From Asterochloris sp. CNOR1 (lineage: Eukaryota > Chlorophyta > Trebouxiophyceae > Trebouxiales > Trebouxiaceae), in contig OZ017761.1 in the NCBI GenBank assembly GCA_963969365.1, forward strand, positions 1,240,001 through 1,304,000: DNA of 64,000 nt, given 5' to 3'. The notes beneath the pieces are model-generated. The model made no database searches, was not told the origin of the DNA, and saw only the letters and a list, made by a program, of their open reading frames with translations. This document shows positions 20,621 to 46,954 of this stretch, piece after piece; the first letter of the stretch is position 1; each line of letters begins with the position of its first letter. The position numbers and the translations under genes are program-made.

Positions 20621-23600
20621 CTAGCCTTTGGCGGCTTCACGGCTGACCCTGCGGCTGGGACTCGATAATGTGTCACCACCCAATGGACGTGGTGTGCAGC
20701 GTTGATTGCACACATCACACCCTGCTTTTCTTACAAAGCTGTAAGTACTCACTCCACACCCAGCACTCTCTGGAGAGGTGTCAACCTGAAGGCCCAGGCT
20801 GTACATGGTCGGTCTCGTCCTCCCGTATTATGGGACGAACCATCTCCAGGGACTCATTCACTGTCATCAGGCTGCCCAGCTGTTCTGCCAGCTCGGCCAT
20901 GTTGCTGTGCTCAGCATCCAAGAATGCCTGTAGAGCAGAGACTAGATACAGTCCAAAGCCAAGTAGCATTGCAGGCCAGTAGCAGGAGTTGTGAGGGCAG
21001 GCATGAGGCTAATGCCGTGAACACGCATGAATACCTCAAGGAGTAATGGCAGCAGGCAAGACAACAAACACAGAAGGAGTTGTCTGCCTGCTGCAGCTTC
21101 CAACACTTAGCACCCAGGGGTGCTGTTTTGCAAGACCACAGTAGCCTGCAGCTGGGTAGCTCTTTGCCACATTGTCTCCGAGTTGATGCAGAACACAAGC
21201 TCAGTGCACTCTCCTTGCTTTGCACCAACATCAGCTGGGTAACTGCATCAAACAGTCACCTCATTATCCTCAAAGGTAATGCAGAACACAAGGCCAATCC
21301 CCTCCTCTGCCCTCTGCGCCTTAGCGCTGGCAGCTGCTGCAGGGAAGCTGCGCCCGGACAGCCTCTTGCTGTTGATCTGCCACACAGCCTGGGGCTGGGG
21401 GATGCCCTTGAAGGTGAACTTCCCAATGTGGCGCAGCTCGATGTGCGTGACGGTCTGGCGCCACTCATCCTGCAGGGCAAAGGTAGCTGTGGGAGGGTGG
21501 GCTGCAGGGGGCCAGACAACAGTCTGGCGCCCTCATCCTGCGGGACGAAGGCTGCTCCGGACAAGCGCCTGCAGGGGTGCAGCGTATTTGCGTGATGGTC
21601 CCCGTGCCCCTCACTGTGCGGGATGGAAGGAAGGGTAGAGAGTGCAGCAGAGTTGTGCTCTGGGCAGCTGACTTGGAGCAGTGTGGGACCGTCGCTACTT
21701 ATGCTGCAGTCTGAAGGCAGGGCACATGGGTCAGCAATCATTTTACAGCCCTGCCTTGTTGTGAATGGCAATGCAGAGAGGGGACGAAATGCCACCACTA
21801 CCTCACACAGACCTGCTGAAGATTCTCCAGAGTGAGCTCTGCCGTCCAGCCGTAAAATGCATTGCAATGCACAGCATGCAACCTCAACTGAGACAGACCT
21901 GCATCATCCCCAGTAGGGCCTCATCATGGCACTGAAAGAACAAAACAAAACCCTGCGGCTTGACGCACTCCTTTGGCAACATGTTACACAAAAGAGGCAG
22001 TCGACAGATTACCTGCTGCAATTCACAGGGCAAGGCGTGCCTCCTCAGCCCTGTCCTAAACCCCAACTCTAAGCAAGCGAAACATGATACATGCACACAG
22101 ACCTGCTGCAAATCGTCGAGAGTGAGCTCTGCCTCCTCAGCCATGTCCATCGTGGGGGCTCCCTCGGCAATGGTGCGCCCCTCCTTGTCAGGCTGCTCCG
22201 GCTTCTCTGGCTTAGCAGCATGGATGCTGGAGCGCCCGCCCAGGGCAGCGCTGCACAGCACCACACAAGGACATTGCTTGCTAGCTGAGCAGCATAAATG
22301 GTGGCTTGGCACCAGCTGCACAGCGCAGCATGCGACATCAGCATGGCAATTCAGCATGGGCAGCTTAGCAGCATAAGTGCTGGAGCGGCCGCAGAGGGCA
22401 GCCCTACACAGCATGACAACTCTTGTCGTCGTCATCTGGGCAGCAGGGCAGCGTGTGTGCCAGATCACCTGCCCCAGACAGGGCTGCACAGCTCATCAAC
22501 AAGGAAGGACACTGCTTGCATGGCTGTTTCGTGGACTGGAAAAGGCCCTTGGCAACTCTGCATAACACAGGGGCACATCAAGCCAGTACCTGATTGTCCC
22601 CTGCCTGTTGCAGGGAGCAGCTGCCAGCAGGTGCTTCTGGCCACCACCACACAGATGCGTCACAATCAGACTGTTCAGGCACCCAGAAGCACTGCCCGTC
22701 GCTATGCTCAGAGACACATTGCCAGAACTCTGCTCACTTGGGGCGGGTGCTACCCAGCAGGAGCTGCATCCTGGCGAGGCCCTTCTCCCGTGCAGTGCTC
22801 AGCATGCCCTTGGCAGCCCCAGTTCCTGCAGCATCCTCGCTGGCATGCTCCAGCGACCTGCGCACCAGGCCCGCAAGTCAGCCTCGCCTGCACTCCCATG
22901 ATAGAGGTCTGGCAGGCCTTGCTCTGAGCAGGGCGCTGCTAAAGCAGTGTGGCCCCTCTGAGAGGCAGGTCTCGGGGTAAGTGGCCAGGCAAAGGCTCTT
23001 GACACCTCCAAGAGGCAGGCTTTGGTCAAGAGTAAGCAAGTTGATGTCTTGAGGCTCACTGTTGTGCAGTGCTCGTGGAGGCTTGCAGAAGGTTATTGGT
23101 GGTGGATTCTGCAGAGAGCTCGATCTCAGAAGGTGCCAGGCTGCGCCCGGTCACTGCATGGCTGAGGGTGGACCTCTTACTGCCAGGCCAGCTTGCCGCG
23201 ATGCTCTCATTCAGGGGCATGAGCGGAGACGCCGAGTCCACCTGGAGGATGGGCAGAGCTCAGCCTTGGAAGATGGTGTCAACAAGTGGGCTGACGCAGC
23301 TGTTGAGACTGTCGGGACAGTACTCAAACTGCCGATGCCAGCCTGCAGAGCTGTGGCACACAGATGGCAATGACTTCAAGTTTATAATGCTCAGCCCAGC
23401 CTCGGTGTGCCAGCTGTAGCCATGACATGCTCTGTTGTGAATGTGGCCTAAACACGCTCATGGTAGGCATGACAACAGCAGCTGCTGCACCCACCTCACT
23501 TGCGTGTTGGCAGCACAGCCTTCCCTGCCCACCGTGAGACCAACAGCCACATGATTGCACACAGAGAGGGCAGCTGGCCCTGCCTGTACTCTGGCAATCC

Positions 23601-26600
23601 CTGTTGTGGGAGTGACGCAAGCCACAGCCTCTGCGGCCTACAGTTGCTGGTGCCTTGCTCAACTCGCGCCGGCCGCTGGTGCCTTCCTAGTCCAGATTGC
23701 TCACCATGGATGCCCCAGCCACAGCTTCATCTGCAGTGGTCCGGGGGGAGTAGTCCCGCACTCTCCCCCCGTTCTCCTCGTCGCCCACTTCCTGGTCCTG
23801 CGTGGAGCGCACAGACATGATGCGTCGCAGCTGGTTGCTGAGGCGCCGCGCCAGCTGCCTCCCCAGCTCTGAGCTGGTGAACAGGCCAGAGGGGCGGCTG
23901 AGGGTTCTGTCCGGCGAGCCAAAGTTGGGCCTGCACAGACACGCAGAGTAACTTCACTGCGCTCAGGTGAGAGAGCTGCGTCCCCAGCAGGTGAACAGGC
24001 CAGGTGGGTGGTTGCTGCGAGACCACAAAGGTGTGGCCTGCAGGGGCATACAGCTTCACTGAGGGAGAGTCCAGTGACGCAACAGAATGGCACATTCTGC
24101 AAGCTAAATGTGTGCAGGCTGGCTACCACCATGAACACTGCCGCACCTACCACCATGAACGCTTTCACACCTCCCAGTAAGTCAGAATTCGTCTGCCAGG
24201 AAGATGGGTACAGCATTATGCATGCACTGAGGGCTGATGAGCAAGTGCTGCTGCATCCGCTCTTGAGTCACGATATCAAGCCACAGGTAGGTGTGCACGG
24301 TGTCCAGGCCTGCCTCTAGCCATACAACGCTGAGCCTCTGCACCTCTCTCTGAGAGAAGTGCTGGGCCCCAGCCTTGCAACAGGGATTTTTCCCACCCAG
24401 AGCTGCTGCTGAGACAGGGCTGCTGCAGGGCGTGCACCAGCAGGGGGAACAGGGGGGTTAGTATCATGTGCCAGCCTGCAATGGGCGCTGGCCTGCTGAC
24501 GTGCAGCTGGCTGCTGTGGGGTGCAGGCCTGCCAGGGACACTGCCGCGCAGGGCAGGCGCCTGCAATGGGGTGCAGGCCTGCCAACAATGCTGCCCATGC
24601 ATCTGCTGAGGCTGCCTGTGGGCGCAGGACGAGTGTTTGCATGCAACCTTTGACAGATGCAAAGCGCTCACGCTGGCATCGCCAACATGTTACGGATGAT
24701 GCGCTGCCTGTGCATGAGATGTCTGAGGTACTGGGCTCTGATCTGTATAGGCTCAGCCAGGAGCTGGCTGGGCAGGCTGAGGTTGACCTGCAGCCAAATA
24801 GCAGCGTGTGCAAGCAAGGTCTGTGGCTGCAGAATCATGATCACTGCATGGCAGCAGGACCAGCAGGAGGACTGGGGCCTCATGCAGCGCCAGTGGAGGA
24901 GACTGAGGGGTTGCAGCAAGCCCAACATGCTGGCTGTGCTCCTTGGGCATTGCAGTGCACTCACATCTGGAGCCCACGTCTTCAAAATGGCCTGGATGAC
25001 CTCTGCAGAGGTACAGATCTGACCACCATGGGCTGCAGAGATCCCATATCTGGCTGCACGGTTGACAAACCTGCAGAGCCAGCGCTGACCTGTCAGCAAG
25101 GCTGAGGCTCAGGTGAGATTGCATGACAAGTGCAGAGTGCCACATTCAGGCAGTCATGCATAGAGCCACAAAAAAAAAAGCAGCATTCTCACGGGCCAAA
25201 GTAGTCAGCACGTCCTGTTGTGGTGTGAGGCCTGCAACACAGGGCAATGGTTTACGTTCTGCTGGCGGCATGCATGCAGGCTCAGTGCGCATGAGATGTC
25301 ACGGGTTCACATGGGCACTCTGCCAGCAGCATGCATGCAAGTTCATGTTGCACTTGAGATACCGCAAACAGTCAGGGATGCTCTGCTGGCAGCATGCATG
25401 CAGGTTCACGTGCCCATAACATTGTATAGACATGTTGCACTGCCACAGGGCGCCATAGCAGCCAGCAACATGCACATCGCAGTGATAGCCAGGGTATCAG
25501 ACATGTCCCTGTTTGACGCAGCACCTCTTACTGAAGTGCAACATGGGCAGAAGGACCTACAGGTGCCAGCTGGGACTGCTGCCAGCCCTTTCAAGCGGTG
25601 GGTGCTAGGCAAGCTCACGTGACTTTGGTGGGCCTGCCAATGTACACCCCCAGCTTTACCCGAGGCCCACGCAGCACGACCTGCACCAGAGGGGCCCCTC
25701 AAGGCCAGCTGCAGCATGCTGAGCCATGCAGGTATGCTGGCGGCAGTAGCGCAGTGCATCTGCATGCCTACAGTCCAGCAGGATGGTTTGCAGCAAGGCC
25801 TGCCAAGCATCGTCAAGGCTAGGCCTTTGAGCACCCTGGTCATTTGCAGCTAGCTCAACAGAGCTACAGCATGCTGACACTGGCCAGCTAATGGCTGTGG
25901 TGCAGTGCATGGTGGAGCACTGCCGTACACAGTGAGACTGGGGCACGGCACACACCTCATTCTTTCCAGCCAGCACTGTGCGACAAGGCTCCAATGCCAG
26001 CACTGCTGAGCCCCAGGACACCTCCAGCAAGTCCTCTTGAACCTGCACTAAAAATGCCCTATAGGGTGCAGACTTTGTCCAGCATACACACATGATGGGA
26101 GCTCTGCTTGGGGCTCTGGTCATTCCATCACATGCATGGAGAGCAGCCATCTCATAAGGCGGACCTCAGAGGCTCTTCAAGCTGAGGCATTCTCATGACG
26201 CACCATGAGAAAACCCCAGCTGTACAAAAGGCTGCTTGTGTGCTGACGCAGGCACGCTGCAAGCACATGATGCTCACTCACCAGAACACAGAACTTGACG
26301 GCATCAATGGGGTCGGTAAAGGCCAGCATGAAGCTCCCCTGCAACAAGGTCAGCCACCACTCAGCTCCCACACTGTCCCATAGATGGACTGCAGTTCCCA
26401 CAACCAGTACGCTCGTGCAATGGCAATGCCAGCAGTCAGGTCCTGCTTGAGCAGCCAGCCCCCCTGGCCAAGCATGGAACAACTCTGCTCATATGCAAAG
26501 CATGACAGACACCAAGGCTCGCCTCTGCCTCCTGACATTCATAGCCCCTCTGGAGCCTCAGACATTTGCGCAGGCAGTCCCTGCAGTTGGCAGGCAGACA

Positions 26601-29600
26601 GGTGGGTGGCTGCCATGAAGCTACACCCACTTCTTACTGTTGCACCAGCAGGTCTTTGCAGCATGCGCAATGCATTTGCAAGTGGTGTGACATTTTGCCT
26701 GGAGCTTACCTAAACAGTGTCAAAGCCACCTCTGCAACTGCAGCATTCTCAGTCTTCATTTCATGCCACCTGAGGGGAACTTGTCAAGCTCAGCACCTCG
26801 GGCGGAGATGGGAGCCATTTCAGTGCAGAACAGCTTTGACAGCATGCCAGCTGACACCAGCCTGCTGCACAACTGCTGCAAGCACCATCAACGTGAAAAA
26901 CACTTCCTGCCATGCGGACAGCTGATGCTCACTGTTGGATTGCAGTGAAGACGAGTGTGACAGGCTCTGCTGGCTGAATAGCCCGTAGCTGATCTGTCAG
27001 CGTGGCCACGCTAGCACCAGGGGCATCAAAGTAGCCTGCACAAGGCAGTGGCCAATGTCACACATGCGTGATCATTGGGCAAACATGTAAAAGGCCTCGA
27101 CAGATGGGCTTCAGATGTGAGTGTTGGTCGGTACCCACTGCTGGCAATGGCTAATGAGCGGACAAGGAGCACTGCTGCAGAGCTGCTGAATGCACCTCTG
27201 TGTGGATGCCAGTGGACTGCAGGACATGCTGCGCTTGCCACACTGACTGGCTGTCAAGCTCACTAAGCTAATCAGCAGCAGTGAGCCCAGCTGCTGCATG
27301 GACATGTCCTAGCCGTGCATTCCGGCAAGGCTGCCTGCTGAACTCTTTGCCTGGCGGTCGTACACTGTCATGTTGCGGCATGCATGGTTTTTCTGGCGAG
27401 ATGAAGCTGTGCACCCATGCGTGAGCTGTCCTCTGCTCCTCGACTTCCCACAAAATGCTCTGCAGCGGAGTCATCGGGTGCTCCATGCTCGCAAGCAATG
27501 TGATGTGCACCCTGCTGAGCAGGCAGATGTCATGCGGAAGGCACCTGGCATGAGCTGGCGTGTCGTCCGCAGGGGTGGGACATGACGGGCTCGTTCCTCC
27601 AGCCCTGGTGGCAGGATCTGCTGCAGCTGCTGGGGCTCAGGCAGCCCTGGCACCACGTGCAGGCCCATGTCCATCACCATGACGCCACCGCGCGCCGACT
27701 GGGGGTCCCTAGCAGGGTCGTCTGCAGAGGGCAAGGGCATGTCAGGCTTGAAGCTAATCAGCAGCAAAGCCACACAGCCCAGCAAGACGAAGTCAGTGGC
27801 ACCAGCATGCTGCTGTGGGCTGACAGGAGGCAGCAGGCAGGGCAGGTCAAGGCAGGCTCGGAAGGTCATGTGCAGCAAGGCCGCAGAGCAGGGCAGACCG
27901 GCATGTTCACAGGCACAGTCAAGTTGCCATGGGCTGACTGAGTTTACTGATACTGCTCTCTGCAGCAGGAAGGGTGGGATGGTGTTGGTCTCCCAGCAAC
28001 TATCTGCTGGATGGCTTCTACTACAGCCTCATTGGCTACTGGCAGCCAGGCACGAGCACCTGTTGCTGTGGCAGGGGGTCTCCCTATCCCTGACGGGAAG
28101 TGTCTGCATAGCCTAAAGCTAGCCCTGATGCATCCTGGGTGTCGTCAGCATGCTGACAGGCCACAGCAGGTAGTCACTGACATCAGGCATCAAGCTTGCA
28201 TCACCTCTTTGACACATGTAGCTGCAACAACCCTTTGCAGTGTTGAGGTGCATGGCAGTGGTTTCCACAAGCGCAGCACATTGTTTTGCCATCCAGGCAG
28301 CCTGAGGAGACCTGTGTTGCAGGCGCTGTTTGAACCAGCCCATGCACACCCATCCTGGAAGCGTGCCCTGCCGCTGAGGCCCTGTGGTGCCACAGGCACC
28401 TGCAGATGGCAGAGAGCAGCACCAGGCTGCTGAGTCGAACACACGCATCCACCTTGAGAGTGCGCCCTGCTGGTCAGCTGGCCCCCTGTGTGGGGGTGCC
28501 ACAGCTTGTCAAAAAAGGCTGACATGGATCGCTCTGCCTTCTCTCCAAAGGAGCTCCATCGCGAGGCTGCACTGGTGCTGCGCGAGGGCAGCTCGGAGTT
28601 CTGTGCACTCACGGCGGCACTATCTGCTGCATTGTGTTGCCCCTGTGGGAGGGCTGCTGCGATGTCAGTCAGCCGGCTGTTCACCTGCGGGGTGCAGGTG
28701 AGAAGTGTGGCTACTCTTGAGGTTTGCCACTTGTGTGAAGTGCAAAGCCGCTGCAAAAACTGCAACTGACAGGGGTGCATGGTGTGCCATTCATCGAAGA
28801 GAGGCCACCACCTGTTCATTAACACGGCAGCACGGGTGGAGGATGTCAGGACTGATGGCACAGCCGGTGGCATGCACTGACACAGATGGTGCTGAAGACT
28901 GTCAGCGGCACTGTTGCACAGCATAACTCTGCCTGCATAGCGGCTTGTGCTGTCCAGCAACGCCACTCACCTCAGCACAGTGGGTACTTGGCAAATTTCT
29001 CACCTGAGCAAAGGCTGTGGTTTTGCACAGGACCCAACTGGTGTACATGATGGCAACAAAACACCTGTGGTGCAATGCAATCATTCCAGCTCTAAAGCAG
29101 TGCAACTACCCTCAAGAGCAACCTCTGGTTCAAGGTCACACTGCACGAGGAGTGAGGGTCACAAGCGCCTATTACCTGGGCAAAGGTGGCGCTGCTGCAG
29201 AGGACCTGCCCGCCGTGCATGGTGGCAATGAGGCCCTTCAGCTGGTCAATGATGGCTGAGTAGCGGTCCAACACCTTCACAGCAGGGTCCCGCGAGCGCT
29301 GCACTGCCCCCGTGTGGATGCACATCCGCACACGCACGCCCTTGAAGACACTGTGGTCTTCGTGGGGGGCGACGATGCCCTGCAGGCTGGCAAGCTGTCA
29401 GAGGAAGCAGCAGGCAGTGTTTCTGGGCGACACCTGCTGGAAGCGCTCAAGCTGGAGCTATAATGCAGGCATGACAGCAGCCTGGCAGATGCATGAAGGA
29501 CCTCCCTCACATGTTGTGACCACCCAGAGAATCTGGGCCTTCACAACATACATGCTTCATGGGGGCAAGCAGTGGCAGTCAAGAGATCAGTGGAACCCCT

Positions 29601-32600
29601 GCCCTCCCTGTCACCCAGCACGCCATGCGCACTCAAGCATGGCTGCTCCCCACACAATCTACTGTAGATGACCGCATGGACCCAGCCCTACAGCACAATC
29701 TGGGATTCTATCACCAGCTGACCTCTTTATTATCCACCTCGCCTGGGGCATCCAGAGACTGCTGCTCCCACACGACAGTCTTCTTCCCCGGCGTCCTTGG
29801 TGTCTCGATCTCAAGGCTTTTGGCAGACTCCACGCGAGAGGTGGAGGCAGTAGCCCTGCTGGCAGCGGCTGCAGTGGATACCTTGAGGAGGGTGGACAGC
29901 GTCAGGGTGCGGGTCTTCTTGTGCATCTGGAGCTGAACAGGCCACTGTGCGCTCACCAGGGCCTGCAAGCATGGGCACATGCTGTGCTGTGCTGGTGCTT
30001 GCAGGCCAAGTGGCCAGGCACCAGCAAATCAAGTCAGGGGTCATGGAAGGCCAGCAGCATGAAGCAGCGCCAACTTACAGAGGAGGAGGGCAGGCATAGA
30101 AGAAGCACAGTTCACCTGCTAGGTTGTCAGGCACAAGCCACCAGCTGCACCACACCTTTTGGGTAGCTAGGCACCAGCACACTGCATCGACGGGGTCCAA
30201 GAAGGCCAGCAGCACGGCATCACCCTCCTCGTGCAGGTGGATGGCCTTGTACCGGTCTTGCAGGGAGGACATGACCTTGCTGTATACGGAGGCAGTGGTG
30301 GCCATCACCTGCAGCCCAGTCAGTTCCAAGACTTCAACACTGCTGTCAAGGCGGTGTCAAGCATGCCTGCCGTGCAGGCGTGAGGCCTACTGCCATGACT
30401 TGCAGACGGAGCTTATGAGAGGTGCCATCCTGCTGTCAAGGCGGTGAAGCGTGACTGGCAGTCTTGCAGGGAGGACAGTGTTTGCTGGAATGATTGTGGC
30501 ACCATAGCCTGCAGCTGAATGCCAATTGTTCTCTGGCAGGCAGGGGCAAGCATGAGCTGCAGGTAGGCCTGCAGGATGGGCAGCGCAAAGTGCTGGCGGT
30601 GACTGGGGTTGGCTTGGCGGCAGATGACAACAGGGCACATGCAGGGCATCAGCGCTGTCCATGCAGCATAGCAGACAGAGGCTGCAGGCTTCAAACAGTA
30701 ACACTCAGCGGCCTGGTGCATAGAATACACATTTTGGGCGATGGAACTTCTAGCGGAGCAAGTCCTGGGCTGCTTTTAATTGTGCCGTCACTTAAGGCGC
30801 TTTGCCTCGCTTGAGCTTGGGCAGCTTGAGCAGTTGAGGCCCACCGAGGGATTCCACTGAAACAGCTCCTTCCAGGCCTCTGCATCTGTCAGCACCAGCG
30901 TGATCTGCTGCTTGTTGGCGGCCTGCAGCTTGAGCTGCAGCGCGGTGGCGCTCTCGCTGGGCAGGCGCCAGCGCAGCCAGAAACTGGCAGCTGCCATAGC
31001 CAGCAGGACCCCCACCAGGAAGGGCAGCACCAGCTTGTACCAACTCTCCCTCTTTGCCAGAAAGGGAACCTTGACAGGGGTGCATCTGCAGACAGGGCTC
31101 AGGCTTGACTGCAGCTGAGGTGTGGTCAGGTGAGGTGGCCAGGTGAGGTGCGGCCAGAGGTGCACCATGACAGGTGTGCCTGCAGAGAGTTGTCAGGCTT
31201 GGAAGCAGCTCAGGCTGGCAGCGGGGTCAGCAGGTGTGGTCAGGTTGCTCAGCAGGGGTACACCTTGACAGGCACCTCAGCTGCACACAGGGTGTGGGCC
31301 TCTTTTACTGCCAACTGTGACTGCAAGCGGCGCAGCTGAGGATGGGCACAGCTGCGCCACGCGCAGTCACAGGCACGGGCACAGCGCATTAGGTGCAGCG
31401 GGGGAAGGTACTTAGGGCCATGCATGCAACATGTTAGATTGCAGGCAGATGCAGCGCCAGCTTTCCTCAGCTGCAGCTGTGTCATGACGAAGATGCGCTG
31501 CAATATGGTGCTGGCTGAGTAGCCAGTCTGCGAGTGCAGAGTCAGGGAGCACAGCTCTGAGGCGGCCTCAGTAGGGGCCAGCAGGCAGCTGGCCATGCAC
31601 CGCCGCCTCACTTGAGGTGGTTGGCGTCAGTCCAGTGTGTCACGAATCCTGTTGAGCACTGGCACTGGTCGTATCCCACGTACTGGGCATCAATGCGGGC
31701 ATATCTGAGGCGGGGCATGAGCGTGTAGTTGACATCCCAGGGAGGGCATAGCACCCCTGAGTCGCCAGCAGTGCGCTGAAACACCTTGGGCACAGTCCTG
31801 CAGGGGCGATGGGGACATGGAGAGGCCAACTACACTGCAACCGTCCCGGCCGTTAGGCACTGCAACCACAGGAGCGAGCGTGGTGCAGGCCAGCAGTGCG
31901 CTGGAACACCTTGAGGACCGCCCTGCACTGGCAGTGGGGTTGGTTGGAGCTGAAACGCCAGAGCTGCGTCAGGCCACAAACGGCAGCAGCATGCCCTGAG
32001 TGGTCTGGCACCTTGTCTATGCATGCAGCTCTGCTGCCTGCATGATACTCTGGAGCCTTCCTTGAGCTGCCTGGCTGCCTGTGAGACTAGGGTTGCATGG
32101 GCTCACATGTCTGAGTACATGAAGGGTGGCAGACGCTGCCCATATCTGTTGCGCGTGACCTGTTGCATGCCGCTGCCACGGATGTTGAGCAGCAGCAGCA
32201 CCTTAGCGCCTCCCAGGCCGGGGGGCAGGGGGCCCCTGCACGCAGCCCAAAGGGTTTCAGCAGGGAACAGGGCACATCGGGCAGACGGTATTGATGCATC
32301 TGATGCTCTTAAGGGGGCGCAGCCTCTGCACCAGCACAGCACAGCTTCGTGCTCCACAAGAAGAGTTGCCAGACCATTTGGGCACACCTCAGAGAAGCTT
32401 TCCGAGTGAGGCTTCGGCAGACAGCAGTTGAGAACGCATTGCCAAACTAGCTTTGCACGCTCACGACATGTTGTTGTCTGTCAGAATGAGCTGCTGAAGG
32501 CCACTGCTGTAGGTCAGGCTGGGAGGCAGAGTGCCTGTCAGGTTGTTAGACCCCAGGTGCAGCACCTGCATGCAAGTATATGTGCAGGAGCTTCGACAAA

Positions 32601-35703: not shown

Positions 35704-35970
35704 GGCTGGCTAGCTGCAGTGACAGCTGCCTATGCTGCTGCTGCCTCGCAGGCTGTTATGCCATCACTGCATCGAGGTAGACGCCATGATAATGTTGCAT
35801 CCTCAGCATGAGTCGACATTTGTGTGAAAGTTACCAATAGGTCCGGGTGCGGCTTTGGCAGCATTGAACGCTCACGGGATACAGGCTGGCAGTCAGATGC
35901 CAGCTCTCTGGCAGTTACAACTTACTTGCATCATGATTTCTCCCAAATCTGATCAAGCAGCTGCAGCCAC
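35704..35970. promoter_or_regulatory. Shared divergent promoter region of the two receptor cyclases
   Basis: Only 267 bp separate the start codons of the head-to-head cyclase genes (303 bp if the plus-strand gene starts at 36001). Both promoters and both 5' leaders must fit here. A CCAAT box sits at 35834-35838. No TATA box is obvious near either gene. Bidirectional co-regulation is an inference from spacing. Confidence 0.6.
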
Positions 35971-38900
35971 ATGAGGCCATGGCGCTCTGGTAGAGGCAGT
36001 ATGCTATTGCAGCTGGTTGTAGCAGCAGCATGCGTTTCAACCTGCAGGGCTAGCATTGCCGCAGCAAGCTATACCTGCAACAGCTCATGCCAGCAGGCTC
36101 AGCAGGCAGCTCTCAGCCAGCTGTATGCTGACACAAATGGGGCGTCCTGGCAGGAGCAGTCAGGCTGGGCCAACTTCAGCAGTCAGATCAGCCCCAGCTT
36201 AGATGCACATTGCAGCTGGCAGGGCGTGGTCTGCTGCAACACAGACAGCGTGCTAGGGGCCTTGGGGAATGGCTCCTTGGGCTGCAGCAGCCCTGGAGCA
36301 GTCCTGGCGCTGGCCTTGCCAGACAATGGCCTTAGTGGTAGTCTGAGCAACTCTGTTATTGGAAATCTATCATCGCTAGTTCAGCTGGATCTGCAAGGTC
36401 AGCCTGGCGGCTTGAGCCTCTCCGGCTGCAGTGCTAATGAATGCTCGTGACTTTCTGCCCTGTCCAGTCACGCATGGTCGCACCCTTGACCCTTGTGGCT
36501 GCTGCAGGCAACACCCTGACAGGCACTTTGCCAAGCTCTATCAGCAACCTGACTCTGCTGGAGGGCCTCCTATTGTCCCAGAATAGGTGGAGTCTGCTTT
36601 GTTTATGCAAAGGCAGCCCACTGGCAGAGCTGTGTTGTCGAAGTGGTCGACATCCAGCGTTCAGATCAACCTGCAGTGTGGGCCTCACAGTGTGCTGCAT
36701 GTGTTCAGGCTTCGAGGGACAATCCCTGCTTCACTTTTTGCCCAGCCCAGCATTCAAGTGCTGGACCTAAGTGCCAACAGGTTCAGTGGCACACTCCCAG
36801 AGTCGCTTCTGGAGATGACCAGCCTGTCATATCTTGAACTGGGCGCCAACAGATTGTCAGGTTGTTCAGCCTTGCTCCTGTAGCCTGCTGCCCAGCACCT
36901 GCTGCCTTAGCCCTGGCACTGCCAGCCTGAGCTGACGCATGAATGCCCACTCACTGCAGGACCGCTGCCGGCAGACTGGAACAGCCTGCCAGCGCTGCAG
37001 CACATAAGCCTATACTTGAATGCCATCTCAGGCCCACTCACAGCTGGCGCCCCGCCTACATCCATAGCTGATGTGCTGAGGCACATCATCTTCCCTTCCA
37101 GCAACCTCAGCGAGTAAGCAAGAAGCAGGGACTGTCCTGTCAGGCAGCTTTGATGTGGGTGCTGCAGTGCATCTCTGCCAGCTCCTGATGCGTATTGCCC
37201 TCCCGCTGCTGGCAAAACGCAGTGCTAGATTGACGCTGTGCTGCCGCTTGCTAGGTTGTCAGTACGCTACACAAATCTCAATGCTAGTGTCCCACACGCC
37301 TTAGCGCTGTATCCACTGCGGGTGAGCTGCTGCACAATCAGCTGGTTGCTGCAGCAGCATGTGCTAGACCTTGCTCCAGCTGCTCACATTGGCGAGGCTG
37401 CCGGGAGTGCGTGTGTCACGCCTGAACCACGGCTTGCTAGTAGCGTGCCTCGATCGCAGCTGTTGCTGCTGGGGCTCACGATCAGTGCTGCAATGGCCAT
37501 TGAACTGATGGAGGTCATTCTCTGCAGGCGCTTGACCTTGTCGGCTGCATGTTCACAGGCACCCTGCCTGAAGAATTCTCCTATATGTTTTGGATCAGGG
37601 AGCTGTCGCTGGCGGGCAACAAGTGAGCTTCACAAAATGCACACAATGCTGTTTGCTGCTCACGACGGTTGCAGGAAGACAAACATGCGCCCCTGATCGC
37701 AGCTTGTCTGGCCCAGTCACTGATCTGAAGGTGGCCAGACACCTCACAAAGCTCTCATTCTCTGGTAACTCCTTCACTGGTGAGCAGGCAGATCAGACTG
37801 GCAGCACATGCAGTGGACTGGGGGCCAAGTATGAGGACTTGGAGTGAGCCTCCATGTGCAGGTCACTCGCCATGCAGCACTGTCCAACATGGCCAGCAGT
37901 CTGTACGCTGCAGGCACTGTACCAGCTTCTTACGACAAGCTGAACTTCCTCCAGCAGCTGAGCCTGGGAAAGAACAACTTCACGTGAGGGTTCTCTGGGA
38001 TGCCCTGCGAGCATGCCCAGAAATGTGAGCCTCATGCTCATGCTGCTGCAGGGGACCAGCCCCAGCACTTGACACCATGACAGGTGCGCGGCCAGCAACC
38101 TGCATGCTGCGGTCTGCCTCCTGGTGCAGTCTTCAAGGGAGCAGCTGGCTTGCCCGCCTCCAGGTGCTGCCAGCAGCACTACTTTGCTGCCTCAGGTAGA
38201 CAGATCAAGCTGCTTTGCTGCCATCTCTACAGGCCTATACCTCCTGGACCTAGCCAACAGCGGGCTGCAGGCCACACAGCCAGGCGCTGCTGGGAACTGG
38301 CTGCCAGACGAGCTTGAAGTGCTCCCGTAAGTCTGATCCCATAAGTCTGAGTACGACGTTGCATACAGCTCAGTCAGATGTACATTTGCAGATGTGAACC
38401 ATTCTGTGACTCTGATGCACACTGATGGGTCTAATGCTGCACACAGCTCCATCAGTTGCACAAAGCTGAGATTGGGGAAGACGGTTGAGTCTGATGAGCC
38501 TCAAGCTCAGCCTGATCCACATAGCCTTGTCTGTGATGCAGACAGCACTTGCTGAGTCTGATGCAAACAGATTGGGCTGCTCCTTCAGGCGGTCCAGGGC
38601 ATCCTGTCTAAGGTGCTGGTTGATGCTCCACAAAGGTGGTGCAGTATGACCAGCGCTCTTGGTTCTGAGCCTCTGAGCACTTTGCCTGCAGCTCTGGACC
38701 TACCACCACTATTGAGAGCTTGAACGCTGTATGCCCTGACATAGTGGCAAGCCCACCTTTCCCTGCCCTAGAATTTTTGAACATCAGTCCCAGGCAAGGG
38801 ACTCCACATTGCTCAGCAGTGCTCTCTAGTACTCCATTGCTCATCAACACAAATGCTGTAGTCTCCGACATTGACCTTGCTGAGACCCACGTGACCCTCC

Positions 38901-38974
38901 TGCAGCTACTATCACTTTGAAACATGCACATGTCTGCCAGGTTACAAGGTGGACCTAAACAGCACAACTTTCAG
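35971..38974 (+). other. Signal peptide and LRR ectodomain of gene E
   Basis: The N-terminus has a hydrophobic LLQLVVAAACVS segment, then the Cys cap (CNSSCQ, HCSWQGVVCC) shared with gene D. LRR cores include NGLSGSLS, NTLTGTLP, NRFSGTLP and GCMFTGTLPEEF. The ectodomain ends in a Cys-rich segment (HFETCTCLPGY) just before the membrane span, matching DQCQCSTGF in gene D. Confidence 0.85.
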
Positions 38975-41900
38975 GTGGGGCTGCTCTCTGCTTTGTTTGA
39001 TCTTTAAGCAGCAGATAATCTGCAGTTGTCATGCTGCATGCACTTCTCGCTTCTGCACCTTGTTGTCATGCATGCACCTTCTCATCTGAACCCCAGATTG
39101 TTGCAGCAGTCCCTGACTGCTGCTGACCTGCAGGTGCAACGCCATCCCCCCCCACGCGACTCCCATCGCCATTGTTGTGATCATTGTGGGCGTGCTGGTG
39201 GTGTTTGCCAGCATTGCAGCAGTGTGGATGCGCAACTCTCTGCCCCTGTTCCTGCGGGCACGGGCAAAGAATCTGGGCCCTCCAGAGCTGGGCAAGCCTG
39301 TCACACTGGTGCTGTCAGATGTGGAGGGCAGCACGGAGCTGTGGGAGTGGAACCCCCGGGTGGGCCTCGCAGCAGCGCATGCGGCAGTGTTGAGCCATGC
39401 ACAGGGGCACACAGAGCACCGTCTGTGCCCTGCAGCAATGGAACTGGCAGCCCGCGAGCCTTGCAACAGCACCCTGGGGAGCTCCTGATCATGCTGTCTG
39501 GAGACTTCTCGGCGCAGGGTGTGGGCTGAATCTCTGAGTTTGGGGGTCGGTTCGGGGGTGCCATGCAGCCACATTGTTGCCCCAGCATGGTCTCGCTGCA
39601 ATGAGACGGAGTCGCTGGCTGCCTGCAGGTCATGGGGGAGGCCCTCAGCCTGCATGACCAAATTATGAGAACCTCACTGACCTACCATGGCGGCTACGAG
39701 GTAATCACTTGGCCCCTGTTCACCTGACGCTCCCTCAGAGGACTTGTTATCTACCTGCTCGCCTGATCTGATGCCCCTGCACACAAGTCTGCCTCCTGCG
39801 CAGCTAGACATTCCTGTCCTGGCCTTGAAATTGGCAGACAGCGCCCCAGATGCCTGGGACCCTGCCACCATTGCACATCAATGCCATTACCTGATCCTGT
39901 GGCTTCAGGTTACCACAGAGGGCGACGCTTTCGTTCTGGCCTTCCATGACGCACAGGATGCGGTGGCCTGGTGCATGTGAGACCCGAGTGCCCTTCATTG
40001 TGAACCAGGCTGGTGATGACAGGCAGGGCACCTTGTGTTGCATGTCTTGGTGGCCGACTGCAGCTTGGGCAGCCCTGTCGACGCCTTGTCAGCGCCCCCG
40101 GGACCGGCATGGTTCTCCTCTGCACATAAGACCATCAAGTTACTTGCGCCTGCAGGACCACCCAGCAGGCGCTGCTGACCGCTCCCTGGCCGCTGGAGCT
40201 GCTGTTGCACCCCAAGGCATGCATCCGCACTGCCAAGGCAGATGCAGTCATGGCAAAGACTGCCCAGTACCTGCAACCCTCTGAGGTGTTGCTGAGAGGT
40301 AGGTAAAACCTTGCTGCAGCTGAGGGTTTCATTCAATGTTGAGCTGAGCCGAGCTGCATTTCACATCCTGGTGGTGCTCTTGCCAACCACACTTCCCTGA
40401 GGAAGAAGCTAAGTGAGTTCATCCCTCATATGTCAGTCCAGGCCTCAGGGTGCGCATGGGCATAGCCACAGGCACTGCAGACAAGACAGCTGTCCACGCC
40501 GTTACCAGGCGCACAGAGTACCCAGGACAGATATTGGAGCTGGTGAGCATCTGTTGTTGCATGCCGCTGTTGCGGGGTGGGTGAGCGCCCTGTGTCCTCA
40601 TTTCCGCCTCACCTGCGCACCTCGGTATGTGGTGTTGGTCCTTAAAGAGCCGCCCTGCCACTTGTCACACTATTTGATGTCCAGAGACCTCATTCCATGC
40701 CTTTACCTGCCCACTGCAGCAGCCTGCATGCACGTGTCATGCCTGTGAATGCTGCAGGGAGATGCCCAGCTGGCCTATAAAGAGCACAAGCAAGATTTCA
40801 CAGCGACGCCTAGTGCAGATCCCTCCTCCCATTTGCAGCCTGTCTTGGCTGCCTCAGCAGCATGCTGATGAGGACGTTGACAAGCTCCAGTGTCCAGGAC
40901 TGCGCTGCAGGCCAAGGCAATATCTGAGATGCCCAGTGGCGGGCAGATTTGCTGCTGCGCCCAGACCTTCACGGCTCTGCAGCAGTTGCCTGAAGATGAG
41001 GTCAGCGCGAGAGTGCTAGACAGACCAGATCAGGAACTGCTGGCCCGGGCACTCAGGCAAGCTGCATGTCCCCACAGCATGCATGAGCTATGTGGGCAGC
41101 CAGATGACACACTGCTGGCTCAGGCTCAACCAAGCTGGGTGCAGTGCTGGGTCCACAACCACATCCGTCCTGGGAACACATTGCTGGGCACAGCAATCAG
41201 ACTGGCTTGATGCAACAACAGTCTGCAGCCCTGAGACCACCGCAATACAGGCCTCTGATGCTTGTGTCCAGCCACACAACGCTGCATCTCAACAAGCATG
41301 CGCACTCCACTGTTGAGCTGCTTGAATATGCCAGATAGGCCATGATGTGGTTACTCCACACCCCCTCATGCATGCAATTGGGAGACTGGAAAGGCTGCCT
41401 CGGTCAGAGCTGCTGGCCGCTGCAGGGTTCAACGGTGTGCAGACAGAACGTGTGTGACACGACACAGTCAAGGATGCTGGCCCTTCAAGGACCCACGGTC
41501 AGCACAAGTGGCGGAAGAGGCCCAGACCTGTGAGCCTTGCCGTGCAGGGATCCAGGCTATGCAGGCCGGCACTCCTTGGACACAGTCAGCAGCGTGGTGC
41601 GCAAGGCCAATCAGGTGGCACCCAGCAACTCAGCAGTAACCTCGAGGGTGGCCGCCGTTCTGTCGCGGCGGGAGAGGGAGGCTCTGGCACGCAGGGAGGC
41701 TGCTCAGTCTAGCACTGCGCCCGCCAGCTACATGTCCCTTCGAGATGCTGCTGACTTGTTGGACCTGGAGGGCTTGCCGTCAGGTGGGAGGGACTGACCC
41801 TTGGCAGGGCCTGCTGCTGAGGGCAGTGGTGCTAGGGCGCACTTGGAGGGCTTGCCTTTGGGCCAGGGATCCCTCTTGTATCCCTGAAATGAGGTCTGCT

Positions 41901-44900
41901 GCATCACAGCAGTGTTCAAGACTTTGATTGGTGCAGAAAGCAGCAGAGTTGACAGGCTCAAAGGGCTTGCCTTGAAACGCAAGCTGCCTTACCTGCTTGG
42001 GGCTGAAGGCACTGCTCAGAGTGGATGTTGCAGCCCAGCTGTTGAGCTTGCAGCGGTAGCCTTCAGTGAATGTGCGGGGCACATCCAGGCGTCTGAAGCC
42101 ACAAGCTGCTGTAGAGAGCAGTGCTCAGAGTGGATGCAGCTGACTCTGAGGACTTGCTTTCAGGCTTCTCACAAGCATCTGCTCTCATGCTCCCGCTGTT
42201 GTGCTTTGAACATGCAGCTGCAAGCTGAATCTGCTCAGGAGTGATGTGGGTGCAACAAGCTGCTGAACAAGAGAGAGGCTTGCCTCTACATAAGAACTCC
42301 AGCAGTCAGATTCCCACTGCAGACAATAGTGCTCATGATGAGTTGCGCGGGATGCAGCTGATGTGCTTGGCTCCGGCTCCCAGTGCCAAGCTGAGTGCAC
42401 CCCACAGCTTCAGGCACCTGGGCACTCAGGCAGCCCGCAGCGCCCATGCCAATATTGCACCGCCAAGGGTCTGGGCCACAGCTCAACATGATAAAGCGTC
42501 TGCAGCTGGCTTTGTGACTGCCTGCAGGTGCAGCTCAGCAGCGTACAGCCCACCGCGTGCTGCTGCACATGGGGCAGCACATTTTGTCCGGCATGGATCG
42601 CCCCCAGATGGTCTACCAGGTGAGCCCTGCTGCTTCAACACGCAGAAGAAGCTCTGCTCAACTGTCATCAATAGCAGACTGCGGCCTATGTCAGCCACGC
42701 CCTGTCCCAGTCTGGCCCCAGCCTGTGCAGGCAGCGGTCTGGTGACTGCAGTGCCCCACACTCACCGCTGTGGGTTGTGAAGGAGCTGGCAGCTGCCGTG
42801 CTGCAGGTAGTCTGTGCTGCACTATCTTTGACCCTGATGTTGCCTATGCTGGCCACTGCCTGGGCCATTCATCGCCCTAACCCCTGCGGCAGCACCTTGC
42901 ACACAGCGTTTTGCTGCTTGCACAGCGGGCCGAAGCCACTCATATGTGGGCAACCTGGCTCCTAGACTATGATTGCAACAATCAAGTGGCTTGAGTGACC
43001 GTCAGGCAATCAAGATCTCATGGGCACAGCTGTTCAACCCTCTTCAGACTGGAGGGCACTGCAGGTGGTGGTCCCAGGCCTGGAGGAGCGAGCCCACTTG
43101 TTCAGCAAGCTCTCCAGTGTGGAACAGATAACTCTGGGTGAGCATGCCAGCAGCACTGTGTCTTGTGCTCCATACCCTTGCATACCTTACACTGAGCTGG
43201 ACAGGCTGGGCAAGGGCCCCTGCCAGCACAGCTTGGCTCCCCCGCTTGTCATGCCACAGCTGCCTTTGCTGCTGCCATGAAGCCAAGGCGTCCAGGTCTT
43301 CCGAGTGAGCATGCCCGTCAGCACACAGCATTGTCCCCTACCTGCAATGCCAACGCTGCCTTCTCCTTGTGTGTTGGGCGCGTAGTGCGCAGGTCAATCC
43401 ATGTTGGCACCAATGCTGCAGAGCACTAAGCGTAGCTTGCTGGCAGAGCCCCCTGCCTCTGCTTTGGGCTTGCACTGAGCAGGTACCTGCAAAAAGAGCA
43501 CTCAGCCTCTGCACCCCAACATTGTTGCTCAGAAAGCATCCCGCCTGCAGGCTACTTTCAGGCGCCTGGGGCAGCAGATGCCTGGTCAGCATTGTGGTCC
43601 CCTGCTGTCAGGTGCGCTGTCTTCTGCAAAAACGCAGCGCCCTTTGCACCTCTGCCAGCACGCTCTGCAGGCCTTTGCGTTGCCAGTTCAATCGGTTGAT
43701 GCTGGGGCTGACCCTGCTGGCGCTGCACGCACACCAAGTGGCCAGCAGTGCCTGACGCTTGGTGTCTTCTTGCCTCCACTCCTTTCTTGGATGGACAGAG
43801 CAGGTTATCAACGGGCATCTGCTGCCCAGCAGGCCTTTCCCCAGGGCCATCACGGTCTGCAGAGCATGCAGCTCACACGCAGCAGACGCAACACAACCCA
43901 TGCTCCTAAAGCCCCCAGCGGTGCATGCTTCCTCAGTTGCAGCATCTGGTTTGAACTTGGAGCTGTGAGCCAGGCCCCTTGACAAGATGAGTGGTCCAGC
44001 CCCATGGCCACCATGGTCTGCAGCAACATGCCGTATACCCAAGCCCCTGAGGCAGCTTACTGTGAGCATGCAGGGCACACATTGCTCCTTTGGCTGTGTC
44101 GTCTTCTGCATGCCCCTCTCCGAACCCTGAGCCAGGCCGCTGCCTCCCCTGCAGGGCCCAGCTGGCGCTCAGTCACCCAAGCCAGACCACTGCCTGCAGG
44201 TGCCAGCTGGCACCCGTGGCCATGGTGGTCAGCAGCATTGAGGGCTACGCAGAGCTGCTGCAGCAGGACCCAGTGGCGGCTGAAATGGCGTCCTCTCAGA
44301 CTCTTGACCTGATGCGCATGACGGGGCGCCCCCTGGGGGCATACGGCTGTGGCATTGCCCAGGACCGTTCCTGCGTGGCCTTCCCCACTGCCAGTGCAGC
44401 CATCCAGTTCTGCTTGACGGTGAGATGAAGGCGGGGCGTGGTGGCTCTGCTCGAGTATGGCGCTGTTCATCAGAAAGCCGCCCAGCGGGGGCGCGGCAGT
44501 GCAGGCAACACTGGCTTTGCGTCCTGTACAGCCAGGTCTGCCGGGGTGTATGGCTGTGCCGGCTGATTTTGCTTCACAGGCAGCAATGGCAGGCTCATCT
44601 GCCTGGTGATGCGGCCAGCAGCAAAGGCCTCCACAACATTTTTTGGCGTCCTGCTGTCTGAACTCCGAGACTATCACACTGCCTGGCGGTTCGGGCTTGC
44701 TAAGGCCACTGCACTGCTGGAGCAGATCAAAGGTGTGTGTCGCTGTCGTGTAGAGAGCAGAGATTGCACCGCCACTGTCCCGCACTTGCTGCAGGTACAG
44801 GAGGGTCTTGTGCAGGCCACTTGGGTCGCAAGGGTCCTGCAGCACCCTGCCTGCAAGCCCAGCATGAGCCCAGCTGATGGTAGCCTGCTGTTCTCTGGGC

Positions 44901-46954
44901 CACGCTTGAAGATGGGGGTGGCCTTTGGCGAGCCAGAAGGAGGAATCCGCCCTGATGCAGTGACAGCGCGGGCATCATATTGTGGTCCTGTAGTCAGCAG
45001 GTAGGCTGCATGCTGCCCCGCAAGAAATTCATCTTAGCTAGTCCCAGGGCAAAGGCTTGTGAATTTGCTGCTCAGGCACGCCATTGCACCGTAGGGATAG
45101 TGAGCGGTCAGCATGCAAGTGCTGCACAGCTGTGTCCCTACAGTGCCTCATGGGCAACTTAGCAGGCAGATGACTGCCCTCCAAAGCTGACCTGTGTGCA
45201 AGGCATGTGCATCTGCGTTTGCAGGGCAGCCCACATGAGCCAGTACATTGCACATGGCGGGCAGGTCATCACAGACCTAAGGACAGTGCAAGCAGCGCTC
45301 CAGGACTGGCTGGGGGAGAGCTTGCCTATCCCAGCAGAGGGAGAGATCATCACCGTGTCTGCTGGCCATGCCAAGCAACATCCCAGCAGCACAGCCCCGT
45401 CTAGGCGCATCGGCAGCGAGCCAGCGCCAGTGTGAGCGTGCACACCCCAGGGAGCCCATGCTGCACAAGGTCCCAGCCGCATGGCATGGACTATGGTTTG
45501 AATGGTCCTGTCATGCCTCCCTGGCATGCATATCAGCAGCTGTGTGCCATTGATTTATTGAGCATGCAACTCTTGCACATGCCGGTGCCGACTGTGAAAC
45601 TCATAGGACTCTGGCACATGCCTTTTTCTTCTTCTGCAGGGGGGACAGCCCCAACCTGAGCTTGGGCAGTCAGGGCCTGGAGCAAAGTTCTCCCAAGGAG
45701 CTGCCTGAGGGATCTGAATCGCAGCACTACGAGGGGACCAGTTCGGCGGCCAGGGCTGCACAGCCCCCCAGCCCCAACCTGCAGCCTTGCCTGGTCACAG
45801 AACAAGGCACTGGCGGCTTGGCCCCATGCATGGCTCAAAATCACCCCTTTCAACCCCCCAGCAAGCTCCCGGCCCTGACTGAGCAGCACCACAGCAGCGA
45901 CAGGCCCCTGCCCCAACTGTTCAGCCCCTTTGCAGCTGCTGCTCAGGCTGCTAGGCTGGCCTTTGGCCAGCCAAGCAGCAGCAGCAGAGGCCCTGCAGCA
46001 CCTCCTGCAGCTGGCGCCTCACATCGGCATGACCAGCTGCAGGGGCTGCAGGGCATCATGCAGCACCCTCGCATCTCTCCTCAGCACTCCAACCCCTCAG
46101 CCCAGGCAGGGAGCCCTCTGCCACTAAACCTCCAGCGGCCCAGCTTCACCAGGCAGGCTGTGCCAAGTGGACCCCGCACTGTACATTCAGGTGCGTTCCC
46201 ATGCAGCAGTATCAGCCTAGGCACGCTTCTGAGCGCATAGACAGCCTTGAACTCCTAAACGGTCACCCGACAAAGCTTCTGTTTGCAGAGTCTGAAGAGA
46301 ACCAGGGGCCTGAAGGAGCAACTCCATCCCCAGCTGATGAGATGTCGCCTTCTCTGACAGCTCCGACTACTGTCACCCCGGAGAGAAGGAGGGCAGGCCG
46401 CAAGGCTGGCAAGCAGGTCATGGCCTGCAAGTGTACTACAATCCATCCATGGCCACAGCCAACTTGTTTTCACAGCATACATGCAACCTGATTGAGCATG
46501 GATAGATGAGTGTTGGTTCATCTATCAGGCAGCTTGCTGTTTCTGCAGGATTGCTGAGCAGGCTGGAATGCTTCATCAAGTGACTGCACGGCAAGCACCA
46601 ATCATGCAGCTCCTTCAAAGGTTTCTGAGGCATGCACAGAAGCCTCCCTCTGTGCCAAATTGTGGCAACTTCCCTCCTGCATTTGCATCACTCTCCCTGC
46701 AGGACATCTGGGCAGGAGTGGACGCTGTGGAGTTTTCCCACCTGGGCACGTTCACAACAAAGGGTGGCCCTGCGTCCCTGCTCATCATTCAGGCTGCGAC
46801 AGCCCACCTAGCCTGGCGCTCTTTCCCTGTCAGGCCAGCCATGCCCAAGAAGGCGCGACAGGAGTCCACAGGCCAGGGGCTGCTGTTCACGATCCTACAG
46901 GACGAGTGTACAGGGAGCGCCGGCAAGTCAGGCATGCGGGCTTGGCAGGACTGA
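35971..46954 (+). CDS. LRR receptor-type class III nucleotide cyclase, diverged paralogue (gene E)
   Basis: Predicted single-pass receptor of about 1,430 residues with the same domain order as gene D. Exons: 35971-36397, 36508-36586, 36709-36860, 36960-37113, 37255-37321, 37528-37622, 37703-37779, 37878-37983, 38084-38163, 38233-38326, 38692 to about 38890, 38906-38974, 39134-39359, 39629-39700, 39909-39976, 40156-40298, 40442-40542, 40911-41000, 41615-41783, 42528-42619, 43065-43137, 44136-44419, 44795-45000, 45225-45431, 45640-46190, 46289-46430, 46549-46579 and 46703-46954. C1 is canonical (SDVEGST, TEGDAF, LRVRMGIATG). C2 lacks both aspartates (SSIEG) and has VVSRAAH where gene D has FVNRAAR. 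The ATG at 36001 is an alternative start. One junction near 38890-38906 does not keep frame. Exon 38084-38163 and the acceptors at 41615 and 44136 are the weakest calls. Confidence 0.82.
39300..43137 (+). other. C1 cyclase domain of gene E
   Basis: Follows a membrane span (PIAIVVIIVGVLVVFASIAA) encoded in the same exon. Motifs: VTLVLSDVEGSTELW with the first metal Asp and phosphate-binding Gly-Ser, GGYE|VTTEGDAFVLAF with the second Asp, GLRVRMGIATG, PSGGQICCCAQTF and HILSGMDRPQMVYQ. The Asn and Arg of the transition-state motif are absent here, as expected for a C1-type half. Confidence 0.85.
44213..46954 (+). other. C2 cyclase domain of gene E, probably inactive alone
   Basis: Begins VAMVVSSIEGYAELL, with Ser for the first metal Asp. 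The second metal site is unrecognisable (GCGIAQDRSCVAF). Later segments are recognisable: LKMGVAFGEPEGG, RASYCGPVVSRAAH, AHGGQVITD and HLGTFTTKGGP. Exon 45640-46190 inserts about 180 Gln/Pro/Ser-rich residues before the last strand. Loss of both Asn and Arg is the main difference from gene D. Confidence 0.8.

Follow-up and report, generated by a model that had tools for sequence, protein, structure and literature searches.

Mirrored decay of cyclase domains in head-to-head pairs of putative leucine-rich-repeat receptor cyclases from the green alga Asterochloris sp. CNOR1

Can a green alga couple extracellular recognition directly to the production of a cyclic nucleotide? The question is raised by a 64,000-nucleotide stretch of the Asterochloris sp. 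CNOR1 genome (hereafter the window; contig OZ017761.1, C16:1240001–1304000 in the coordinates used here), in which two paralogous genes, A and B, lie head to head. Each almost certainly encodes, within one gene, a leucine-rich repeat (LRR) domain, a single membrane span and a tandem of two class III nucleotide cyclase domains (C1 and C2). This pair and a second head-to-head pair on another contig display mirrored decay: in A-type genes C1 is conserved and C2 looks dead, and in B-type genes C2 is conserved and C1 is eroded. We propose, at close to an even chance of being right, that A and B are subunits of a heteromeric receptor cyclase whose active site would be formed from C1 of A and C2 of B. 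An earlier note on the window, made from its letters alone, had described the two genes as LRR receptor cyclases with a C1–C2 tandem each; its interpretation is partly supported by the analyses below.

Catalytic residues and mirrored decay across the family

The searched genome (56.4 Mb in 21 contigs) contains at least 14 loci of this family on 9 contigs, counts that are lower bounds because the search ran exon by exon with C1 and C2 queries. The pair noted earlier is therefore present but not isolated, being two members of a larger family. Membership of the green lineage is indicated by three separate exon-like RuBisCO small-subunit matches on a single multi-megabase contig, two of which exceed the cut-off, and by 31 chlorophyll-binding-protein matches. 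Gene A was spliced by hand, guided by a third paralogue of the same genome, gene C; spliced alignment provided the models of C, C3p, B, C3m and C14, and then of C12, C8a, C8b, C13, C9, C4, C17 and C14b. Gene C is A-type and lies on the same contig (minus strand, C16:1322001–1338000, N-cap near 1336850), with 54% identity to gene A over 1,064 residues; its model has 20 of A's 27 introns in common, a count biased upward by alignment of that model to the A protein, and the matching coding blocks are independent of the model. The second head-to-head pair, on contig C3, consists of A-type C3p (+ strand) and B-type C3m (− strand), separated by 83 bp if the likeliest start codons (3674625 and 3674541) are used, a figure that is not firm given a further in-frame ATG upstream in C3p.

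Class III cyclases use a pair of metal-binding aspartates, a base aspartate, a transition-state asparagine and arginine, and a purine-reading lysine. We located these positions through alignments to the closest solved structures for both domains, the Trypanosoma brucei receptor-type cyclases GRESAG 4.3 and 4.1 (1fx4 and 1fx2; profile search of solved structures, E ~1e-31 for C1 and ~1e-20 for C2). In the C1 alignment (13 rows; C14b, whose model ends early, was omitted), both metal aspartates are invariant (13/13), and lysine, asparagine and arginine occupy the places of C2's purine and transition-state residues in 0/13. The C2 alignment (12 rows) is complementary: metal Asp 1 is missing from all 11 rows that cover the site and from C3m (12/12 readable), and the Asp-Asn-Arg triad (GRADYFGxxVNRAAR) is found in nine of the twelve readable domains (B, C14, C8a, C8b, C9, C12, C4, C17 and C3m), C17 being counted after its own frame was read. 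C13 has a weakly modelled C2 start, and its model ends before the triad site. As read from these residues, the family's tandem carries one composite catalytic set, with the metal aspartates in C1 and the base aspartate and transition-state asparagine and arginine in C2. By type, the triad is present in both B-type genes (2/2) and in no A-type gene (0/3), as A, C and C3p have all lost Asp 1, the base aspartate, the asparagine and the arginine from C2. The purine-reading lysine is Gln in eight C2 rows (B and seven others), Gly in A, C and C3p, and Lys in C4 only; it is also Gln in C3m. The Lys–Asp purine pair of adenylyl cyclases is thus absent from most C2 domains, which makes the product uncertain; any cyclic nucleotide made would probably be cyclic AMP (cAMP).

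Scores against hidden Markov models (HMMs) follow the same division. With six unpaired members as reference (C14, C8a, C8b, C12, C9 and C17), A-type genes scored 238–245 bits for C1 and 107–136 for C2, and B scored 130 and 221, respectively; the reference members themselves, left out singly, scored 196–251 and 197–229. C3m obtained 143 bits for C1 and 184 for C2, the latter slightly under the unpaired range despite the B-guided assembly of that domain. Outside the reference set, C13 scored 239 and 134 (its C2 is truncated) and C4 122 and 105.

Identities over the domain cores, from which the variable middle was omitted, are equally lopsided. Between the pairs, A and C3p share 95/139 positions of C1 (68%) and 51/141 of C2 (36%; p 1.4e-7), echoed by C and C3p (97/139 and 51/141). 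B and C3m share 52/138 of C1 (38%) and 86/129 of C2 (67%; p 4e-6), the second value being biased towards a high figure, since the C2 of C3m was pieced together from exons similar to B and is ~11 residues short. A and C are 71% identical in C1 and 57% in C2 (p 0.016). Four unpaired control comparisons gave no significant difference between the domains (C1/C2, 58/59, 50/50, 47/50 and 85/78%). Ectodomain identity is 33–35% in both cross-pair comparisons, so that neither type is merely faster-evolving overall. In C1 trees, B and C3m cluster with 96–98% ultrafast support and A-type genes are not separated from the unpaired ones; in the C2 tree (C3m absent), A, C and C3p cluster at 100/99 and B falls among the unpaired genes.

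Architecture of genes A and B

The start codons of gene A (35971, + strand) and gene B (35703, − strand) are separated by exactly 267 bp, bearing out the opposite-orientation paralogous pair and the gap given by the earlier note. The extent that it assigned to the pair (20621..46954) is right for the end of A, whereas B ends near 20781 or 21248. Gene A (35971–46954, + strand) joins 28 exons in frame into a stop-free 1,399-residue protein, with GT–AG introns except for two GC–AG introns (GC donors at window 38794 and 41057). Gene B (− strand, 35703 to ~20781) is a stop-free spliced-alignment model, the last exons of which (21469–21260 and possibly 20927–20781) were read by eye, leaving the gene end uncertain. 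The features, in window positions, are as follows.

35704–35970, no strand: inter-start gap, 267 bp measured; presumed common promoter
35971–36397, + strand: gene A exon 1, with start codon, signal-peptide-like stretch and cysteine-rich LRR N-cap (HCSWQGVVCC)
36508–38326, + strand: gene A LRR ectodomain, ~12 repeats of LxxLxLxxNxLxGxlP type counted by eye; exons 36508–36586, 36709–36860, 36960–37113, 37255–37321, 37528–37622, 37703–37779, 37914–37983, 38052–38083 and 38233–38326
38692–38974, + strand: gene A juxtamembrane cysteine-bearing exons 38692–38793 (GC donor) and 38906–38974
39134–39359, + strand: gene A exon 13, membrane span IAIVVIIVGVLVVFASIAA, then C1 start with metal Asp 1 (VLSDVEGST)
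39629–42619, + strand: remaining C1 of gene A; exons 39629–39700, 39909–39976 (TEGDAF, metal Asp 2), 40156–40298, 40442–40542, 40911–41056 (GC donor), 41548–41783 and 42528–42619
43065–43611, + strand: gene A linker, exons 43065–43137 (VVVPGLEERA) and 43551–43611
44200–45431, + strand: gene A C2, exons 44200–44419, 44795–45000 and 45225–45431; metal and catalytic residues lost (VSSIEG, AQD, ARASYCGPVVSRAAH)
45640–46954, + strand: gene A C-terminus, 45640–46190 (low-complexity), 46289–46416 and last exon 46703–46954, which holds the C2 end
35180–35703, − strand: gene B N-terminus, exons 35703–35517 and 35368–35180; signal-peptide-like stretch and LRR N-cap (HCSWAGVYCC)
31644–34839, − strand: gene B LRR ectodomain, modelled exons 34839–34758, 34536–34476, 34271–34114, 33502–33349, 33058–32918, 32565–32468, 32235–32119 and 31797–31644
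30845–31108, − strand: gene B span and C1 start, LVLPFLVGVLLAMAAASFWL; TLVLTDAEA, with metal Asp 1 retained and the EGST motif lost
29176–30308, − strand: remaining C1 of gene B, eroded relative to the family, with metal Asp 2 retained (EEGDAVLLAF); exons 30308–30156, 29962–29882 and 29350–29176, short exons between them unsure
27545–27721, − strand: gene B C1 end and linker, PPGLEERARHVPPL
24965–27035, − strand: gene B C2, exons 27035–26933, 26769–26710, 26580–26523, 26338–26282, 26042–25954, 25680–25619, 25231–25193 (GRADYFGP) and 25070–24965 (FVNRAARY); base Asp, Asn and Arg retained
20781–21469, − strand: gene B C-terminus, 21469–21260 with C2 end HIELRHIGKFTFKGIPQPQAVWQI, then a stop at 21248 or exon 20927–20781

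In both proteins, an N-terminal hydrophobic stretch is followed by an N-cap, LRRs, a cysteine-bearing neck, a single strong span directly preceding the cyclase, and two cyclase domains, which agrees with the layout of the earlier note; the span and the signal-peptide-like start were called from hydropathy only. The tandem stands in that each protein has two domains, but A's C2 lacks the catalytic residues and B's C1 is eroded. A weak additional hydropathy window in B (561–579; 1.72) was rejected as a second span because it falls in the cyclase core, inside C1. The N-caps carry a plant-like HCSWxGVxC motif (by eye), and the ectodomains display plant-type LRR receptor features, including 24-residue LRRs. 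N-glycosylation sequons, counted in A, B and C, lie almost exclusively before the cyclase start (10, 9 and 8 before, and 1, 0 and 1 after, respectively), which fits the extracellular position that we infer for the LRR part.

Pfam was run on the spliced proteins of three of the 14 family members—A (1,072 of 1,399 residues), B (1,032 residues) and C8b. LRR_1, LRR_8, LRR_4 and PF00211 all exceeded their cut-offs in A and B. For PF00211 (cut-off, 21.9 bits), one stretch was reported in A (37.8 bits; C1 at 528–700) and one in B (26.9 bits; C2 at 862–1025), and C8b scored 41.8 bits, with LRR families also above cut-off; the C2 of A and the C1 of B were recognized through family alignments only. The profile search that the earlier note had recommended thus succeeded for LRR_8 and PF00211 but not for LRRNT, the models of which had no match at E ≤ 0.5 in the portions of the three proteins covered; no kinase family was found there either. 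An exon-by-exon PF00211 search of the window gave no match at E ≤ 0.001, yet the spliced A and B pass the cut-off, so that the exon-level negative would have misled; Pfam on single open frames (three covered) also gave no match.

The chain of coding blocks from LRR to C2 is repeated in gene C and in further copies, a recurrence that places the architecture beyond chance, and inspection by eye showed LRR-like repeats in 11 of 14 models (those of C9, C17 and C4 start at the span). The span and the C1 start share a single open frame in A, B, C, C3p and C3m.

Several other features were recorded. Family members C14 and C14b lie in tandem, both on the minus strand, at C14:2021840–2046000, and C4 (C4:2087173–2095861) is the most distant member and the sole aligned C2 with the purine-reading Lys plus Asp, Asn and Arg. 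PF00211 places outside the family are C10:1611830–1612938, C12:2398500–2403136 (matches on both strands within 5 kb), C14:1883539–1884442 and C10:1944656. The window also contains a 162-bp tandem repeat at 49190–49514 (two copies, 96% matching), a low-complexity, Ala/Pro/Glu-rich open frame of 624 residues at 49558–51432, and 42-bp repeats at 58812–59011 and 60220–60324.

A proposed shared active site and its alternatives

The constrained C1 of the A type and the constrained C2 of the B type are together what a single class III site requires, and an inter-protein site is thus the simplest account of the mirrored decay. In the mechanism that we propose, A and B would be partner subunits of a receptor cyclase at the cell surface, produced together from the common promoter and pairing through their ectodomains or cyclase domains. 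The working site would be assembled in trans from C1 of A and C2 of B, leaving C1 of B and C2 of A as a second interface, non-catalytic or regulatory; a ligand on the LRR domains would alter the fit between C1 and C2 and thereby set cyclic nucleotide output. That the A–B pair has cyclase activity is likely; that its active site forms in trans is possible, at somewhat less than an even chance. We likewise put at somewhat less than an even chance the reading that complementary decay has left a working site possible solely between paired LRR receptor cyclases. If such a split enzyme exists, signalling would require recognition by two receptors, amounting to a coincidence detector within the catalytic site. 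The genome encodes phosphodiesterase (36 exon-level matches) and cyclic-nucleotide-binding (23) domains, so that targets and an off-switch are available in principle. Cyclic nucleotide phosphodiesterase-like exons also occur ~48 kb before the window (C16:1189967–1191896).

Several observations weigh against the proposal. Both B-type copies retain the two metal aspartates of C1, so B alone could act in cis, and no partner for gene C was found in ~9 kb upstream of it (up to C16:1346000); together these count against an exclusively in-trans site. C13 and C4 match neither the A-type nor the B-type pattern. The unpaired reference members, the extent of the core and the pairs compared were all picked after the pattern had been noticed, the sample is two pairs in a single genome, and one of the four genes is C3m with its B-guided C2. 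The models of B, C3p and C3m depend on homology-guided splicing, the C3p model has one stop in the C1–C2 linker that was taken as a missed intron, and modelled introns in common are few beyond gene C (A–C3p, 9/27; A–B, 7; A–C8b, 5; A–C14, 4; B–C3m, 10/33).

The main rival holds that B is the sole enzyme, working in cis, and that A, a pseudocyclase, serves as a co-receptor or decoy through which ligand is sensed and B is regulated. It draws on B having the two metal aspartates as well as the Asp-Asn-Arg triad, and on A's C2 lacking them; we regard it as rather unlikely, given that B-type C1 is only 38% identical between the pairs, compared with 47–85% for C1 in the four unpaired comparisons, and that A-type C1 is kept at 68%, which would be needless for a mere pseudoenzyme. 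If A-type genes were instead decaying receptors with an unconstrained C2, either signalling in some other way or not signalling, the loss of Asp 1, base Asp, Asn and Arg in three of three would be expected, but their C1 scores at family level (238–245 bits), the 28 exons of A are open and the C2 domains of A and C are still 57% identical, all of which makes outright decay improbable.

There are two further alternatives. The tandem could be a sensor that binds cyclic nucleotides or nucleotides and produces none, as the replacement of the purine-reading Lys by Gln in 8 of 12 aligned C2 domains and by Gly in 3, and the dead-looking C2 of A, might suggest; without catalysis, it would be hard to account for metal aspartates that are invariant in C1 and a triad retained by 9 of 12 C2 domains, and we consider a pure sensor very improbable. 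The LRR and cyclase exons could also be separate adjacent genes merged by modelling, since the models are sequence-only and contain many introns and some short exons. Repetition of the LRR–span–cyclase chain on other contigs, and the open frame common to span and C1 start in five genes, leave this idea scarcely credible; as far as sequence can tell, LRR and cyclase belong to the same gene, as the earlier note had it. Should the inter-protein site be real, the mirror-image erosion would be a natural test case of a composite active site divided between two receptors.

Comparison with known receptor and cyclase systems

Kinetoplastid receptor-type adenylate cyclases (GRESAG4/ESAG4) have a non-LRR extracellular domain, one span and one cytosolic class III cyclase domain. 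The algal proteins resemble them in the succession of extracellular domain, single span and cytosolic cyclase, and differ in the LRR ectodomain, in having two cyclase domains with divided labour, and in a purine Lys that is mostly Gln in C2. This nearness is not exclusive, as bacterial cyclases reach 42% identity to C1: relatives of C1 were found at 76 loci in bacterial genomes, with up to 42% identity where most of the domain aligns and 47% in shorter alignments. Among these bacterial class III cyclases, the best matches are from Myxococcales and Deltaproteobacteria, and many are from Planctomycetota and Chloroflexi. In viral contigs, 82 stretches fit a search pattern and none was confirmed.

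Mammalian transmembrane adenylyl cyclases have twelve spans and no LRR, with metal aspartates in C1 and base and transition-state residues in C2. The parallel with animal enzymes drawn in the earlier note extends to this single composite site split between C1 and C2 but not to the sequence, which is closer to the trypanosome type; the LRR and the single span set the algal proteins apart further. The rhodopsin-cyclases NeoR/RGC have a light sensor and one cyclase domain per chain. In chytrids they are described, in the part of the source available, as paralogous membrane subunits functional only as heterodimers (PMC8815786). A and B are likewise a paralogous membrane cyclase pair, for which a heterodimer is proposed here from sequence, and are distinguished by the LRR sensor and the complementary C1–C2 tandem.

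The fungal Cyr1-type LRR adenylate cyclase, described in the accessible part of one study as a fungal way to perceive bacteria, has no predicted span, one exception having been deemed a gene-model error; this agrees with the intracellular location given in the earlier note. The same part of that study, which covered 101 eukaryotes including chlorophytes (Chlorella NC64A is named), found an LRR and PF00211 in a single gene in fungi only (PMC2939053). In the literature covered here, which includes few subscription journals and was available in part, fungi were the only organisms for which we found an LRR fused to a class III cyclase domain, and the word cyclase is absent from the portions of the main text available for two Trebouxia genome papers (PMC12712428 and PMC11523091). 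Genes A and B share with the Cyr1 type an LRR and a class III cyclase within a single protein, and differ in their signal-peptide-like start, glycosylation sites, span and two cyclase domains.

A link from recognition to cyclic nucleotides has long been disputed in plants, where LRR receptor kinases (BRI1 and ERECTA-like) have been claimed, in the parts of the reports available, to contain hidden cyclase centres with cyclic nucleotide output (PMC1867859 and PMC12185792). A transmembrane LRR receptor cyclase, if confirmed, would connect extracellular recognition directly with cyclic nucleotides in the green lineage. The algal proteins would have in common with BRI1 and ERECTA-like receptors a plant-type LRR ectodomain and the cyclic nucleotide output proposed here; in contrast to those receptors, the centres of which sit inside the kinase, class III cyclase domains would occupy the place of the kinase itself.

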